Part shown: positions 8,614 through 19,603 of the stretch, piece after piece
Position numbering within the stretch: position 1 is the first letter of the stretch
Layout: each line of letters starts with the position of its first letter
Assembly (NCBI GenBank): GCA_938020445.1
Contig: CALIIC010000081.1
Coordinates: 1 to 33,145, forward strand
Direction: 5' to 3'
Length of the DNA: 33,145 nt
Source: an uncultured Flavobacteriaceae bacterium
GTDB lineage: Bacteria > Bacteroidota > Bacteroidia > Flavobacteriales > Flavobacteriaceae
The notes under the pieces: generated by a model
Databases searched by the model: none
Told to the model about the DNA's origin: nothing
Seen by the model: only the letters and a program-made list of their open reading frames with translations
Position numbers and translations under genes: made by a program

Positions 8614-9195
8614 TTAATTCAACCGTAAAAAATACATCGGAAACCCCAATGATTCCTCTTTACCATATACGCGAAAGCCAAACTTCTGATACAGCTTTAA
8701 ATTATAGTCAGATACCGTATCAATTATCACAGGCAACTTATTGTCCGAAAAATCATCAAATACCTGCATGATCAAACGAGGAGCGGTAACACCCCCTTTG
8801 TACTCGCTCTTTACACCAAAAATCAAAGGGCGAATGTGGTGTTCGGTCGGGTGATTGCCTTTTACCAGTTTTTGCCGTCTCAACACCTTGAAAATACGTT
8901 CTATACCGATGCATTGAAAGGCCAACCCTATCGTTGATTTTAACATACGTGCGGTCATTCGTTCTTTATGCGGGTAATTGATCAACAAACAGCACGCACG
9001 ATTATCGGATAGGAATACTTCTCCCGAACTCATCGCTTTTTCAAACAAATACCCCATTAATACGTGCATCCTGGCCAAACGTTTTCCGTCTTGCTTTACC
9101 ACGAAATTTATTGAGTTATCCTCATTATTAGGAGCGAACGCGGTAACTAAGATACTTACCACCAATGCTTTATCTTCCCGAACTGCCCTTATCAA
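8614..9195 (-). CDS. GNAT-like N-acyltransferase inside his operon
   Basis: A 193-residue protein with a degenerate GNAT fold. A beta strand (LIFGVKS, about 124-130) precedes a motif-A-like loop (EYKGGVTAPRLIMQVF, about 131-146) that would hold the pyrophosphate of acetyl-CoA. The C-terminal YNLKLYQKFGFRVYG (about 164-178) is the typical GNAT motif-B end. The start must be TTG at 9195: no ATG occurs in frame until residue 43, and TTG gives the usual IRAVREDK beginning. It lies 11 bases after hisF and 35 before hisIE, so it must be cotranscribed. Substrate unknown. Confidence 0.7.
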   Translation of the reverse strand: MIRAVREDKALVVSILVTAFAPNNEDNSINFVVKQDGKRLARMHVLMGYLFEKAMSSGEVFLSDNRACCLLINYPHKERMTARMLKSTIGLAFQCIGIERIFKVLRRQKLVKGNHPTEHHIRPLIFGVKSEYKGGVTAPRLIMQVFDDFSDNKLPVIIDTVSDYNLKLYQKFGFRVYGKEESLGFPMYFLRLN

Positions 9196-9989: not shown

Positions 9990-10295
9990 TCAGTTAAAAA
10001 TTGGTTTCATAAAAGAGCGTTCATAACTTACAATGCACCTGGTTTTTAGCGCGTATTCATAGGCGTCCTTACATTCATCGTCCGTTGCACTCGCTTTACG
10101 GTAGTCTTCATAGGCTGCCAAGGAATCAAAACTAAAAAGTGCGGTAGCAATATTATTGGCTCCTTCATGCGGTAGAAAATAGCCGTGATGCGTTCCACCG
10201 AACTTGTTGACCAATGGGATCCATAACTTTGCATATTGTTCAAATTCTACCAATTTATACGGATCAATTGTATATGTAAGATAGCATGTAATCAT
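9990..10295 (-). CDS. NIPSNAP-family small protein
   Basis: A 101-residue protein with the ferredoxin-like alpha/beta pattern of NIPSNAP/ABM-type proteins: a first strand ITCYLTYTIDP, a helix around EFEQYAKLWIPLVNKFGG, then HHGYFLPHEGANNIATALFSF and DSLAAYEDYRKA, ending in a SYERSFMKPI strand. NIPSNAP proteins usually dimerise; enzymatic function is not established. The start ATG follows the DinB stop directly (TAAATG), so the two are translationally coupled. It is 27 bases before hisF. Why it sits in the his operon is unknown. Confidence 0.75.
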   Translation of the reverse strand: MITCYLTYTIDPYKLVEFEQYAKLWIPLVNKFGGTHHGYFLPHEGANNIATALFSFDSLAAYEDYRKASATDDECKDAYEYALKTRCIVSYERSFMKPIFN

Positions 10296-10817
10296 TTAGT
10301 CCAGTTTATTTTTTACCCGAAGGTCTACACCCTCATAAAACCCCAGGTCTTTATTTTTAAGCTGTTTTACCCAAAATGCGATTTGCCCTGTATGGTACGA
10401 ATAATGCTCCACCACATGCATAACGATTCCGATACCTGAGAATTGATACCCTTGTACTTCCCGTTTTTTAAGCAATTGTGCGGTACTTGCTCCTTTCATC
10501 ACTTGCTGTGCCCTACCGACCGTTTCTGAAAGCTTAAACAGAAGTGCGGCCTTGTCATATCCTGACTTTAGCGAGAACTCCTTATCGCGTTCGCGAATAT
10601 CAGCTGTTTCTCCCAAAGATGAAATAGCATATTGGGTAATGTTACCACATAAGTGAATTATTAAATTCGCAATACTGTTCAAAGAGTCGTTGGGGCGTTG
10701 CCATAGCTCTTCTTCGGATACATGCTCCAAACTTTTATAAATCATTCGGGTACTCTCATCCATTCGGTACCGTGCGTTCTCTACTATTTCCGAAATCAAT
10801 TTTTCCGTTGTATTCAT
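10296..10817 (-). CDS. DinB/DUF1572-like putative metal-dependent protein
   Basis: A 173-residue, mostly helical protein of the DinB/YfiT four-helix-bundle superfamily. Potential metal ligands are His55 ([10 protein letters not shown]) and the closely spaced His134, His138 and His142 ([18 protein letters not shown]), the usual three-to-four histidine arrangement. Family members include thiol-dependent S-transferases and hydrolases, but many have no known reaction. Its start overlaps the end of hisA by four bases and its stop abuts the NIPSNAP start, so it is a fully embedded his-operon gene. A DinB/NIPSNAP pair may act together; that is inference. Confidence 0.75.
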
Positions 10818-11598: not shown

Positions 11599-12024
11599 TT
11601 AAAGTAAAATTACACGGTCATTTGCCATCCAGAGTTCCGATTCTCCAACTTTATTGAAACCGAATTTTTCATACATACCATGGGCATCTTTTGTTTTTAA
11701 AGAAATCGTCTTTAAGTTTTTGACCACCTCATGGTTCATAATATGGGATACCAATTTTTTTCCATATCCCTTAGCTTGGTACGGTTCAAAAATAATCACG
11801 TCCATTAAGTTTCCAAAGACTACCCCGTCGGTAACCATGCGCGCAAACCCAATTTGCCCGTTGGTATCGGAATACAACCCAAAACACAACGAATTGGCTA
11901 TACATGTTTCAACCTGTTCTAGGGTCCGCTCTCGGCCCCAATACGAAACCGTACTGATATAATCATGTATTTTATCAACCGATAACAAGGCCTTGTCCGT
12001 CGAAATATAATAGTCGTCTCTCAT
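11599..12024 (-). CDS. GNAT N-acetyltransferase inside his operon
   Basis: A 141-residue GNAT protein. The acetyl-CoA pyrophosphate loop is clear in [18 protein letters not shown] (Q/R-x-x-G-x-G type), preceded by the beta-4 strand LMDVIIF. The C-terminal [15 protein letters not shown] is the standard motif-B region. Its ATG overlaps the hisH stop by one base (TAATG), so translation is coupled to hisH, and hisA follows after eight bases. Acceptor substrate unknown. Confidence 0.88.
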
Positions 12025-13848: not shown

Positions 13849-14823
13849 TTATACTTCGCTGTTTTCTTTATCTGTATCTTTTGAAACCACATTGGCAAGC
13901 TCTTTTGATCCGAAAAGGCGTTTTTTGAAGGCGGCAAATAAGGCTATCGCCCCCAATGCTATAAACTTCCATAGTTTTAAAAGTACCGCAAAGAAGCCAG
14001 CTTTTGCCAATACCTTTCCGGCAATCAATCCTCCAATTCCGTAAGCAGCCACATCATCCAAATCAGGATCAAATTCGGAGTATTTGTAGCCTTCATTGAA
14101 GGTGACGCTGTTCAAAATCGGATTCAAATTTTCCTTTACATCTTCCAAAACCTCTATATCACCAATTACATTGAGGTTCATATAGCCCTTTCTGCCCAAA
14201 ACCCTAATATTATAATTTAGCGTGTTTGTCTCTTCTCCTTCAAACAACAACTCTTTTGCCCAGTGAAGTTTCTTTGAGGACGCATCATAAAAGGGTTCGG
14301 ACGCCCAACCAATCAATTCGATCTCAGGATACCCAAGTCTTTTTCTTTCCGGGTTTGCGTCAAGTGCATCGTTCTTCATTTCGTCTAGCAGCTCATCATA
14401 ATCAATATCCTCTGCGTCGTCATCCTCGATATACCCCTCCTCTGAATAGGTAATCTCAATTCCATATGTAATTTCAACAGCCGATTCATCAATTTTAAGT
14501 AATAGTCCTACAACTGTTTTATCCACCGGGTTGCCCCAAATATCGGAAAGTACAGTCTGCGCCCCATTTTTCTCTAAAAACTTATAGCCCTCGGGAATAC
14601 TAATTTTTGCAATACCATTATTTAAATCTGCTTCATCATAGATATAGTCAAATGTACTTTCCAGGCTATCGGAATATTTCTGAAATGCCATATATTCCTG
14701 AATTACGGATGCATCTACACCTAGGCTATCCGCTAGAAATAATGCACGGTCTTCATCTTGTGCAAGCAAATAGGCACTCCCAAATACAAAAAGGAGTATA
14801 AAAATTATTGGTTGTTTCATCAT
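13849..14823 (-). CDS. DUF2167 membrane protein inside his operon
   Basis: A 324-residue exported membrane protein. A signal peptide (to about residue 21, ending YLLAQ) is followed by a soluble domain with the DUF2167-type sequence NGIAKISIPEGYKFLEKNGAQ and DIWGNP, and an acidic stretch (about 128-145). A later WASEPFYDASSKKLHWAKEL segment precedes the C-terminal hydrophobic region (about 257-295), which would anchor it with a Lys-rich tail. Function unknown. It sits seven bases after hisC and 21 before hisB, so it is cotranscribed. ATG-ATG start; either methionine is possible. Confidence 0.85.
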   Translation of the reverse strand: MMKQPIIFILLFVFGSAYLLAQDEDRALFLADSLGVDASVIQEYMAFQKYSDSLESTFDYIYDEADLNNGIAKISIPEGYKFLEKNGAQTVLSDIWGNPVDKTVVGLLLKIDESAVEITYGIEITYSEEGYIEDDDAEDIDYDELLDEMKNDALDANPERKRLGYPEIELIGWASEPFYDASSKKLHWAKELLFEGEETNTLNYNIRVLGRKGYMNLNVIGDIEVLEDVKENLNPILNSVTFNEGYKYSEFDPDLDDVAAYGIGGLIAGKVLAKAGFFAVLLKLWKFIALGAIALFAAFKKRLFGSKELANVVSKDTDKENSEV

Positions 14824-17673: not shown

Positions 17674-18531
17674 TTAAAGGACCATTTTTTCAATAGGACA
17701 TACAAGAATGCCTTCCGCGCCTGCTTGTTTTAACTCATCGATTACTTCCCAAAAAGTGTCTTTGTTAATAACGGTATGTACCGAGCTCCACCCATCTTCA
17801 GCAAGCGGTAAAACCGTTGGGCTTCGCATTCCCGGTAACAACTTCAAAATGGTATCTAGTTTTTCATTTGGGGCGTTCAGTAACACATACTTTGACTGTC
17901 GTGCCTTGAGGACCGACTGTATTCTAAACTGTAGTTTCTTTAATATCTCTTTTCGTTCTTCCGATATTTTTGGCGAAACTGCCAATACTGCCTCGCTACG
18001 AAGCATTACCTCTACTTCTTTTAGGTTGTTTTTAAAAAGGGTACTACCACTTGAAACAATATCACATATGGCATCTGCAAGGCCAATATTAGGCGCAATC
18101 TCAACAGATCCATTTATGATATGTAAATCTGCATTTACCCCTTTTTTCTTAAGGTATTGACGTACCGTATTGGGATAGGAGGTCGCGATGCGTTTTCCTT
18201 CAAAATCCTGAACGGATTGGTACACTACTCCTTTCGGGACTGCTAAGGATACCTTGCATTTTGAAAATCCCAATTTAGTAGCGATACTGATATCCTCTCC
18301 TTTTTCTATAAGGACGTTTTCCCCAATAATGGCGATATCTACCACGCCATCTCTCAAATACTGAGGAATATCACCGTTTCTGAGGTAAAACACCTCCAAA
18401 GGAAAATTACGGGAGGCTGCCTTTAACTGATCTTTTCCGTTATCGATCGAAATACCACAATTCTTAAGAATGGACAAGGACTCTTCATTGAGTCTTCCCG
18501 ATTTCTGTATGGCGATTCTAATTTTTGTCAT
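17674..18531 (-). CDS. hisG: ATP phosphoribosyltransferase HisG (long form)
   Basis: First and committed step: ATP plus PRPP gives N1-phosphoribosyl-ATP. The 285-residue length and a C-terminal ACT-like domain (about 215-285, ending QAGAEGILVCPIEKMVL) mark the long, histidine-inhibited form, which needs no HisZ. The PRPP loop ADAICDIVSSGSTL lies near residue 155, and the N-terminal RIAIQKSGRLNEES is typical. Immediately upstream are 53 bases, then an attenuator terminator and a His-codon leader peptide. A small hairpin (TCCTTC/GAAGGA, 18551-18567) also precedes the start. Confidence 0.98.
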   Translation of the reverse strand: MTKIRIAIQKSGRLNEESLSILKNCGISIDNGKDQLKAASRNFPLEVFYLRNGDIPQYLRDGVVDIAIIGENVLIEKGEDISIATKLGFSKCKVSLAVPKGVVYQSVQDFEGKRIATSYPNTVRQYLKKKGVNADLHIINGSVEIAPNIGLADAICDIVSSGSTLFKNNLKEVEVMLRSEAVLAVSPKISEERKEILKKLQFRIQSVLKARQSKYVLLNAPNEKLDTILKLLPGMRSPTVLPLAEDGWSSVHTVINKDTFWEVIDELKQAGAEGILVCPIEKMVL

Positions 18532-18580: not shown

Positions 18581-18614
18581 GAAATACAAAACCCGTTTGA
18601 TTTCTCAAACGGGT
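18581..18614 (-). terminator. his operon attenuator terminator (segments 3:4)
   Basis: On the minus strand ACCCGTTTGA (18605-18614), a GAAA tetraloop, then TCAAACGGGT (18591-18600): a perfect 10-bp stem followed by TTTGTATTTC. It lies between the leader peptide and hisG, where a terminator can only be conditional. The 5' arm is also complementary to an upstream segment (18649-18659), giving the alternative antiterminator. Confidence 0.88.
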
Positions 18615-18673
18615 CGTAAATTATGTTGTAGTACTACAATACACTTTTACCTCGCTTGAGCGCAGTGGTAAAA
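18605..18673 (-). promoter_or_regulatory. his attenuator: pause hairpin and antiterminator
   Basis: Two exclusive pairings on the minus strand. The 1:2 hairpin pairs TTTTACC (18667-18673) with GGTAAAA (18645-18651), with an inner GCG-type stem around 18653-18662. The 2:3 antiterminator pairs TCAAGCGAGGT (18649-18659) with the terminator arm ACCCGTTTGA (18605-18614), ten pairs with one bulged A and one G-U. A 14-base palindrome TTGTAGTACTACAA (18626-18639) can fold inside the 2:3 loop. Segment 1 lies on leader codons 10-12, so a ribosome stalled on the His codons just before would mask it and favour 2:3, allowing read-through into hisG. Confidence 0.8.
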
Positions 18674-18700
18674 ATGATGGTGTACATTGTTATTTCTCAT
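18647..18700 (-). CDS. hisL: histidine operon leader peptide
   Basis: A 17-residue frame, ATG at 18698-18700 and TAA at 18647-18649, reading MRNNNVHHHFYHCAQAR. Four of 17 codons are His (7, 8, 9 and 12). Its stop overlaps antiterminator segment 2. Shortage of charged His-tRNA would stall the ribosome at codons 7-9, block the pause hairpin and prevent termination; normal translation to the stop codon covers segment 2 and lets the terminator form. It was missed by length-based gene finding. The leader design is the classical attenuation logic known from enteric his operons, with different sequence. Confidence 0.88.
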   Translation of the reverse strand: MRNNNVHHHFYHCAQAR

Positions 18701-18787
18701 TATGATGTAAAAGTAAAACGTATTCTTGATTTATCAAAAGAATAGTTTCAAATTAAACAAAACTTTTGAAGTTGGTTAGGTTCCAAA

Positions 18788-19603
18788 TTAGTTGTTTCCT
18801 AATATCAACGGCAGTCCAGAATCTCCGCTACCTACTATAACCACTTTAGAATTAGGCGATTGAGACAATTTCAAAGTAGCATCAATGCCCTTGTCCTGTA
18901 AAATCTTATCAGTTAAGGAGGCACTTAGAATTCTATTTGCATCAGCTTTTCCTTGCGCTTCTATCGTTACTTTCTCAGCTTCTTTCTTAGCAGTTACCAA
19001 TCTAAACTCGTATTCCAAAGACTCTTGCTCTTGCTTTAATTTACGCTCAATTGCTGTCTTTATGGTCTCTGGCAAGGTTACATCACGCACCAAAACCTCA
19101 TTCAATTGCACATTTTGTTTGTCTAGAATCTTTTTGGTCTCCTCGAAGATTTCATCTTGAATGGCGTCTCTTTTACTTGAATACAATTGTTCTGGAGTAT
19201 AACGACCAACAACACTCCTCGCGGCACTGCGAATCGCCGGCTTAATAACCCGGTCTAAATAGCCTTCTCCTAAAGATTGGTGCAAATTCCCAAGTTCTTT
19301 ACGTATAGGTTGATACCAGGCCGATGCATCAATTTGAATTTCAAGTCCGTTTGAAGATAGCACTTTCATTTTTTCAAATAATTCTTGCTGTCTTACTTCA
19401 TATATAAATACCTTGTTCCAAGGGGCAACGATATGAAAGCCCTCCCCCATTGGCGGTTCATCTGTAACTACACCACCTCCAAAGGTTTTGTAGAGTACTC
19501 CCGCTTCACCGGAACCAATTGTGACCGCCGATTTTGAAATTAGTATCACCGTGGCAATCAAAATGAAGATGGCCGGAAGCGCAATTTTAGGTAATTTATC
19601 CAT
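18788..19603 (-). CDS. SPFH/prohibitin-family membrane protein
   Basis: A 271-residue prohibitin-like protein: one N-terminal membrane helix (about 8-28), then an SPFH domain (about 30-200) opening with IGSGEAGVLYKTFGGGV and continuing through GFHIVAPWNKVFIYEVRQQELFEKM. A charged coiled-coil follows (about 185-235, KLKQEQESLEYEFRLVTAKKEAEKV). SPFH proteins form large ring- or cage-like assemblies in the membrane that influence proteases and lipid domains. It follows the VWA gene by 12 bases and is probably cotranscribed with it. Confidence 0.93.
   Translation of the reverse strand: MDKLPKIALPAIFILIATVILISKSAVTIGSGEAGVLYKTFGGGVVTDEPPMGEGFHIVAPWNKVFIYEVRQQELFEKMKVLSSNGLEIQIDASAWYQPIRKELGNLHQSLGEGYLDRVIKPAIRSAARSVVGRYTPEQLYSSKRDAIQDEIFEETKKILDKQNVQLNEVLVRDVTLPETIKTAIERKLKQEQESLEYEFRLVTAKKEAEKVTIEAQGKADANRILSASLTDKILQDKGIDATLKLSQSPNSKVVIVGSGDSGLPLILGNN

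Follow-up and report, generated by a model that had tools for sequence, protein, structure and literature searches.

Upstream of the hisG gene of an uncultured Flavobacteriaceae bacterium we identified a region that very probably acts as a ribosome-mediated transcription attenuator, sensing charged tRNA-His in front of the his operon. In the window (the whole 33,145-nucleotide stretch of DNA that was analysed), this region lies on the minus strand, from 18700 to 18581, and reads as a leader, a pause hairpin, an antiterminator and a terminator, with the following features:

18647..18700, minus strand: leader peptide ORF, 17 codons MRNNNVHHHFYHCAQAR plus stop (from the sequence and the comparison of loci)
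18674..18682, minus strand: putative regulatory His codons 7-9, CAC CAT CAT (sequence and conserved position of the run)
18667..18676, minus strand: segment 1, 5' arm of the pause hairpin (covariation, folding by state)
18642..18660, minus strand: segment 2, which holds the leader stop codon; 18651-18642 pairs with segment 1 and 18660-18649 with segment 3 (alignment and folding)
18626..18639, minus strand: palindrome between segments 2 and 3 (a weakly conserved hairpin)
18604..18615, minus strand: segment 3, 5' arm of the terminator and partner of segment 2 (hairpin scan, alignment, folding)
18590..18600, minus strand: segment 4, 3' arm of the terminator, running into TTTTG (hairpin scan, covariation, folding)
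17674..18531, minus strand: hisG, the first structural gene (Pfam HisG and HisG_C)

The leader codons are ATG AGA AAT AAC AAT GTA CAC CAT CAT TTT TAC CAC TGC GCT CAA GCG AGG TAA, which translate into M R N N N V H H H F Y H C A Q A R and a stop. The pause hairpin has 10 bp, formed by 18676-18667 with 18651-18642. The antiterminator pairs CTCAAGCG.GGT (18660-18649) with ACCCGTTTGAG (18614-18604) through 11 pairs and one bulge, and the terminator is ACCCGTTTGA-GAAA-TCAAACGGGT, 10 perfect pairs of 18614-18605 with 18600-18591 closed by a GAAA loop and followed by TTTTG, a short T-run. The first-pass annotation had described a 17-residue leader, a pause hairpin, an antiterminator and a 10-bp terminator on this strand; all of them are where it had placed them, with the pause hairpin spanning codons 9-12.

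The downstream operon is indeed a his operon: among ten proteins scanned against Pfam, it codes for HisG, histidinol dehydrogenase, an aminotransferase, IGPD, a glutamine amidotransferase, a His_biosynth protein and PRA-CH/PRA-PH. Additional minus-strand ORFs lie within or at the end of the cluster (9990-10295, 10296-10817, 11599-12024, 13849-14823 and 8614-9195), of which the first encodes a NIPSNAP-domain protein and the last has no Pfam match. Among the best 80 matches of the window hisG, the named relatives include Pseudozobellia, Pelagihabitans and Maribacter, all of them Flavobacteriaceae.

We found hisG in 42 of 60 relatives and in 211 of 249 genomes of the family of the window, and assembled 134 upstream regions (L001-L134; 30, 24 and 80 loci from successive genome sets). 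One of these, L132, was left out since its contig ends inside the leader, which leaves 133 complete loci, 132 from the family and one (L030) from another family of the order. The hisG start codons are mechanical choices, except for 11 loci where they were set by hand. A leader fitting a fixed definition (ATG plus HHH, or HH with at least four His) is present in 127 of the 133 loci, compared with 4 of 665 dinucleotide-preserving shuffles and none of 133 reverse strands. Overall, a His-rich leader precedes hisG in every complete locus, starting with ATG in 131 and with GTG in two (L060, L062). The longest His run is of one residue in a single locus (L028, HTH), two in 7, three in 69, four in 54, and five and six in one each, such that at least two consecutive His are found in 132 leaders and at least three in 125. 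In 120 of the 131 ATG-started leaders codon 7 is the first of the run, codons 7-9 being the common core, and further His after the run, comparable to His12 of the window, occur in 62 of 133 leaders, mostly two codons past it. A ribosome stalled as far along as His12 would begin to cover segment 2.

A terminator-like hairpin also lies upstream of hisG in all 133 loci. Moreover, a search of 120 genomes with the pattern made of segments 2 and 3 gave a single occurrence in each of 61 of them, and none in the reversed control. The arrangement of leader and hairpin before hisG is not due to chance. Conservation of the His codons and stems in related genomes, on which the first-pass annotation had made its reading depend, is borne out.

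Covariation was assessed in an alignment (A1) of 76 sequences, consisting of the window (L001) and 75 loci that carry an anchored fifth segment, described below, 10-24 nt from hisG. The pause hairpin (1:2) scores 0.240 against 0.153 when shuffled, with slid registers reaching at most 0.135, and 6 of its 8 pairs show double changes, a number reached by none of 500 shuffles. The terminator (3:4) scores 0.128 against 0.083, with slides at 0.069 or below and 98.5% of cells paired. In the antiterminator (2:3), 97.7% of cells are paired and the register is sharp, but only 3 cells have double changes, and complementarity is the same within and across genomes; because this helix hardly varies, its covariation support is thin. 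The expectation that the stems covary across flavobacterial hisG upstream regions thus holds for 1:2 and 3:4, with 2:3 nearly invariant. Together with the presence in the window, and the retention in relatives, of all the features visible in the sequence, this supports the earlier proposal of a ribosome-mediated His attenuator.

Some divergent loci are informative. In L088 the terminator sequence differs, and segments 2, 3, 4 and 5 have all changed in step; its antiterminator is compensated, scoring 20 with its own segment 2 versus 8 with a foreign one. Three other loci with different terminators, L017, L090 and L089, give no clear compensated antiterminator (own scores of 12, 12 and 11 versus foreign scores of 11, 7 and 13), and the 2:3 pairing that a simple scan detects in them is limited to five contiguous pairs. 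In L030 and L107 a foreign segment 2 scores as well as the own one, and compensation is not clear. Finally, in L021, L023 and L036 the leader ORF stops three codons early with segment 2 otherwise in place, which indicates that it is the RNA that is kept, and not the end of the peptide.

The first-pass annotation also pointed to an extra 14-base palindrome in the 2:3 loop. It is present (18639-18626), and scores 15.6 within genomes versus 14.0 across genomes in 128 loci. In A1, 74% of its cells are paired, and its covariation score is reached by 1 of 500 shuffles, but 194 of 500 reach its number of double-changed pairs. As a new feature of the attenuator, the palindrome is weakly supported and we do not retain it.

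Folding of the window RNA in different states gives the structures expected of a switch. With no ribosome, 1:2 forms, and so does 3:4 once it has been made. Masking of segment 1 before segment 4 is made gives 2:3 as the fold of lowest energy (-17.5 kcal/mol), and when segment 2 is masked, 3:4 forms. The mutual exclusivity claimed at first is thus confirmed, segments 2 and 3 being shared and each masked state giving the expected structure. In the presence of segment 4, masking of segment 1 does not prevent 3:4 from being the most stable fold (-25.8). Since 3:4 beats 2:3 as soon as segment 4 exists, the switch must be kinetic, with 2:3 formed first by order of synthesis. Codon positions and masked folds also fit in their geometry: a stall at the His run covers segment 1 and frees segment 2, and a ribosome at the stop codon covers segment 2, given a footprint size assumed from general knowledge.

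From sequence, conservation and pairing, we infer the following course of translation and regulation. Transcription would start a few nucleotides before the leader ATG, and ribosomes would load at this nearly leaderless start without a Shine-Dalgarno (SD) site. When histidine is plentiful, the ribosome would reach the stop codon within segment 2 and mask it, 3:4 would fold as it does in the corresponding masked state, and transcription would presumably terminate near 18588. When histidine is short, a ribosome stalled at codons 7-9 would mask segment 1, such that 2:3 could pair before segment 4 is made and the his operon would be transcribed. In the absence of translation, 1:2 would form and transcription would terminate too.

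This reading has to be weighed against simpler ones. The hairpin could merely terminate the upstream Band_7 gene, the short ORF being incidental. In fact it lies on the same strand, about 170 nt downstream of this gene (which ends at 18788), and might stop read-through as a side effect; however, a plain terminator would predict neither a His run at codon 7, nor a covarying 1:2 helix, nor an overlapping antiterminator, and we regard this explanation as very improbable. Slightly less probable still is a leader that binds a metabolite or a protein (a riboswitch or a T-box) and is not read by ribosomes. A structured 5' element upstream of a biosynthetic operon is what such a system would look like, but none of 4227 Rfam families matches the window at cut-off, T-box included, and the His codons, their frame and their placement relative to segment 2 are all conserved. 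Matching leaders elsewhere (Trp runs before trpE, Phe/Tyr before pheA, Ile/Val/Leu before ilvD) argue in the same direction. Just as improbable is a purely translational attenuation, in which leader ribosomes would govern initiation at hisG and not termination: a fifth segment found 10-24 nt before hisG in 60 of 133 loci could add a translational layer, but the terminator-like hairpin is universal in these loci and the window itself has no fifth segment. We therefore retain ribosome-mediated attenuation of transcription.

Concerning initiation on the leader, we searched for the promoter consensus TTTG ... TAnnTTTG (as quoted in PMC7366714), and predict two boxes in the window:

18735..18738, minus strand: predicted promoter -33 box TTTG, 19 nt upstream of the -7-like box (sequence only)
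18708..18715, minus strand: predicted promoter -7 box TACTTTTA, ending 7 nt before the leader ATG, with one mismatch

In the near relative L002, the corresponding -7-like box is TACTTTTG. With the window box this close to the ATG, the leader is probably near-leaderless: the box position predicts a start within a few nucleotides of the ATG, which makes the leader a candidate for the leaderless class. However, a simpler box scan ranks first TACGTTTT (18722-18715), which ends 14 nt before the ATG, 7 nt further upstream, and would give a slightly longer UTR. The 5' UTR in the clade of the window is thus probably only a few nucleotides, at most about a dozen. A TAnnTTT[GA] box ending 4-9 nt before the leader start is found in 58 of the 133 loci, versus 5.4 expected from shuffles; in the remaining 75, a WTTTG motif ends 17-19 nt before the start in 44, a raw count without shuffled control. 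SD-like 4-mers occur upstream of the leader in only 4 of 133 loci. The first-pass annotation was right that the leader has no SD site and would rely on SD-independent initiation, and its view can be refined to a leader with probably almost no 5' UTR. In related species leaderless mRNAs are a minority, 5.5% being reported for F. psychrophilum (PMC9723704).

The most interesting part of the system lies outside the window's own sequence: a covarying fifth segment in its relatives. Many loci carry, directly upstream of hisG, a sequence complementary to the terminator loop and the upper part of the 5' arm, for example GTTTGAGTAAATC with GATTTACTCAAAC or GTTTGAGACAATC with GATTGTTTCAAAC. Defined by at least four of six loop pairs and an end 10-24 nt from the hisG start, segment 5 is present in 60 of the 133 loci. 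Complementarity is 17.97 within genomes versus 15.35 across genomes (sd 0.17); it starts sharply at GTTTGAG, and the CCC below is spared.

A GTTTGA core exists in 127 of the 133 loci, of which 95 are over the anchor threshold, and 91 of the 133 were anchored in a loop-pair test. In the 95 loci, positions 7, 8 and 10 from the start of GTTTGAG, which are mostly in the loop, pair in 76, 74 and 73% of cases with the own segment versus 43, 43 and 45% when swapped; for position 9 the values are 76% and 65%. When distinct loop/partner pairs are counted once (66 from the 91 loci), the own mean is 3.88 out of 6 versus 2.80 when permuted, with a maximum of 3.21 in 2000 permutations, and a register control on these 66 pairs peaks solely at zero. 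In A1, the whole helix (3L:5) scores 0.313 versus 0.194 shuffled, with slides at 0.073 or below. Here columns 112-118 are selected for pairing, because the A1 loci were chosen by the position of segment 5. The unselected columns 119-125, with six pairs, give 0.380 versus 0.141 shuffled (sd 0.016, 0/500) and slides at 0.059 or below, the highest score among the helices tested in A1. Pairs changed on both sides number 4 in these columns, which is not above shuffles (351/500).

Complementarity of this kind is equal to cross-genome and shuffled controls upstream of pheA (26 loci), trpE (28) and ilvD (19), and a general occurrence of segment 5 in flavobacterial attenuators is thus not supported; the same absence of excess indicates that the method does not create the signal. 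In the window, there is no segment 5: the best duplex has 13 points and ends 44 nt from hisG. A separate hairpin (18568-18551, minus strand) lies between the terminator and hisG, where relatives have segment 5. Segment 5 is present in 60 loci and a near-leaderless start in 58, but both in only 10, counts that ignore relatedness. Outside the family, inspection by eye reveals a similar element with GTCTGAGTAA in L272 and L274, from one genus of another family of the order, and in L277, from elsewhere in the phylum; the partner in L272 shows the matching change (TTACTCAGAC).

Hiding of the hisG start codon by segment 5 is seen in the folds of L020, L025 and L079 (around TTTACTCA and TGAGTAAA), but is not general, because hisG starts differently in L014, L015, L029 and L133. 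Among 12 loci with segment 5, the best fold keeps the terminator 3:4 in 8, and the segment 5 hairpin wins in 4 (L014, L097, L118 and L133), hence a simple cis switch displacing the terminator is not general either. Since the base of the terminator stem is spared, we favour a pairing of segment 5 with the opened top of the standing hairpin, which would be either a pseudoknot-like contact in cis or a contact in trans by the terminated leader RNA. As segment 5 ends 10-24 nt ahead of the start codon, it may control initiation at hisG. A templated-mutation origin would be another explanation for the inverted repeat that segment 5 forms.

We tentatively propose, as a scenario with somewhat less than an even chance of being right, that the his attenuator was ancestrally a five-segment one (inferred without a tree), in which a 13-nt segment ties the terminator, its CCC:GGG base spared, to initiation at hisG. 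This would happen in cis, through a refolded read-through leader setting the translation of hisG, or in trans, through terminated leader RNA that silences residual hisG mRNA loop first, and would amount to a control by histidine of transcription as well as translation. In the clade of the window the segment would have been lost, with a near-leaderless leader instead.

Beyond the family, a His leader by the same fixed definition is present in 20 of 22 loci at the level of the order or class and in 13 of 29 at the level of the phylum, one of the latter (L299) having a long ORF and being doubtful; the corresponding nulls are 10 of 800 shuffles and 0 of 40 reverse strands. L277 (genome G420, same phylum but placed outside the class) has a flavobacterial-type his leader (MNLLQLHHHRHHHTCSQARW) and segment 5, and its HisG is 61% identical to that of the window. 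Either horizontal transfer or mis-binning would account for this locus.

Within the family, leaders with terminator-like hairpins are found upstream of pheA in 26 of 30 loci (L135-L164, Phe/Tyr runs), of trpE in 28 of 30 (L165-L194, Trp-Trp-Trp) and of ilvD in 19 of 30 (L225-L254, Ile/Val/Leu runs), the last figure being less certain than that for trpE as the ilvD motif is loose. The genome of the window contributes its own pheA and ilvD upstream regions (L146 and L248); its pheA leader is MIKQYFYNGSYFYFFFRSEAGLS, with a terminator that the hairpin scan did not pick out. Attenuation thus looks like a general amino-acid control in Flavobacteriaceae. The first-pass annotation, which held that textbook attenuators come mostly from Proteobacteria and Firmicutes, overstated their rarity elsewhere, given that His, Phe, Trp and, less surely, Ile/Val/Leu leaders are common in this family. 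Vitreschak et al. 2004 reportedly also list Bacteroidetes/Chlorobi.

For ribosome-mediated attenuation to work, translation must keep up with transcription already at the first codons. That such attenuation is conserved in Flavobacteriaceae, for His and apparently also for Phe, Trp and Ile/Val/Leu, makes a close coupling of transcription and translation likely at leader peptides, despite the absence of SD-based initiation, and these attenuators are ready-made reporters for measuring such coupling. A near-leaderless leader, in turn, would offer a test of how the ribosomes of these Bacteroidota initiate at 5' ends. If functional, the fifth segment would connect the terminator of an attenuator to initiation at the first gene as well.

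Strong clues to leader-peptide attenuation before amino-acid operons have been described in F. psychrophilum, and conserved structured elements without Rfam match were reported in 2021 before hisG and pheA in flavobacteria (PMC9723704). The hisG element of that study precedes the same gene in a member of the Flavobacteriaceae, is conserved in other genera and has no Rfam match; leader-peptide attenuation was proposed there for amino-acid operons. The passages of that study compared here present the element without its anatomy, a covariation test, a near-leaderless start or a fifth segment, some of which its supplementary tables may contain. Within the passages of open PMC papers covered by a search not specific to the fifth segment, we found neither this segment nor a near-leaderless his leader of Bacteroidota mentioned. 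Since both attenuation and the hisG element are already in print, the attenuator is not a new discovery; the window holds one more representative of a known type, from a lineage already described as having it.

Three or four consecutive His are present in 123 of the 133 flavobacterial loci, and the enteric his leader has more consecutive His than these leaders. The Rfam histidine operon leader (RF00514) has no covariance-model match at gathering score over the whole window; the window leader would thus work like the enteric one while lying outside that sequence family. With the E. coli his leader the system shares tandem His codons and alternative antiterminator and terminator structures (PMC9413887), and differs in the lack of an Rfam match at cut-off and of an SD site, and in a predicted 5' UTR of a few nucleotides. 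Predicted His attenuators of the Bacillus cereus group, Peptostreptococcaceae and Erysipelotrichales share three to five consecutive His codons and alternative hairpins, but belong to a different phylum, the likeness being by description and not by sequence (PMC9413887). The Bacteroid-trp motif RF01692 is a candidate cis-regulatory RNA of Bacteroidetes that carries a trp name (PMC2864571). It has no match in the window.

Precedents also exist for the leaderless start. The mycobacterial polycysteine leaderless sORFs of Canestrari 2020 are said to provide amino-acid-responsive attenuation by a leaderless short ORF, and differ from the present case in the amino acid, cysteine, and in belonging to Actinobacteria. 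In Sinorhizobium meliloti, the leader ATG is the very start of the rnTrpL/peTrpL attenuator transcript, which after termination serves as an sRNA with a trans effect on a different trp mRNA (PMC7298713). This system is alphaproteobacterial and concerns Trp, and is thus a precedent for two aspects only, a leaderless leader ORF and a role in trans (PMC7298713).
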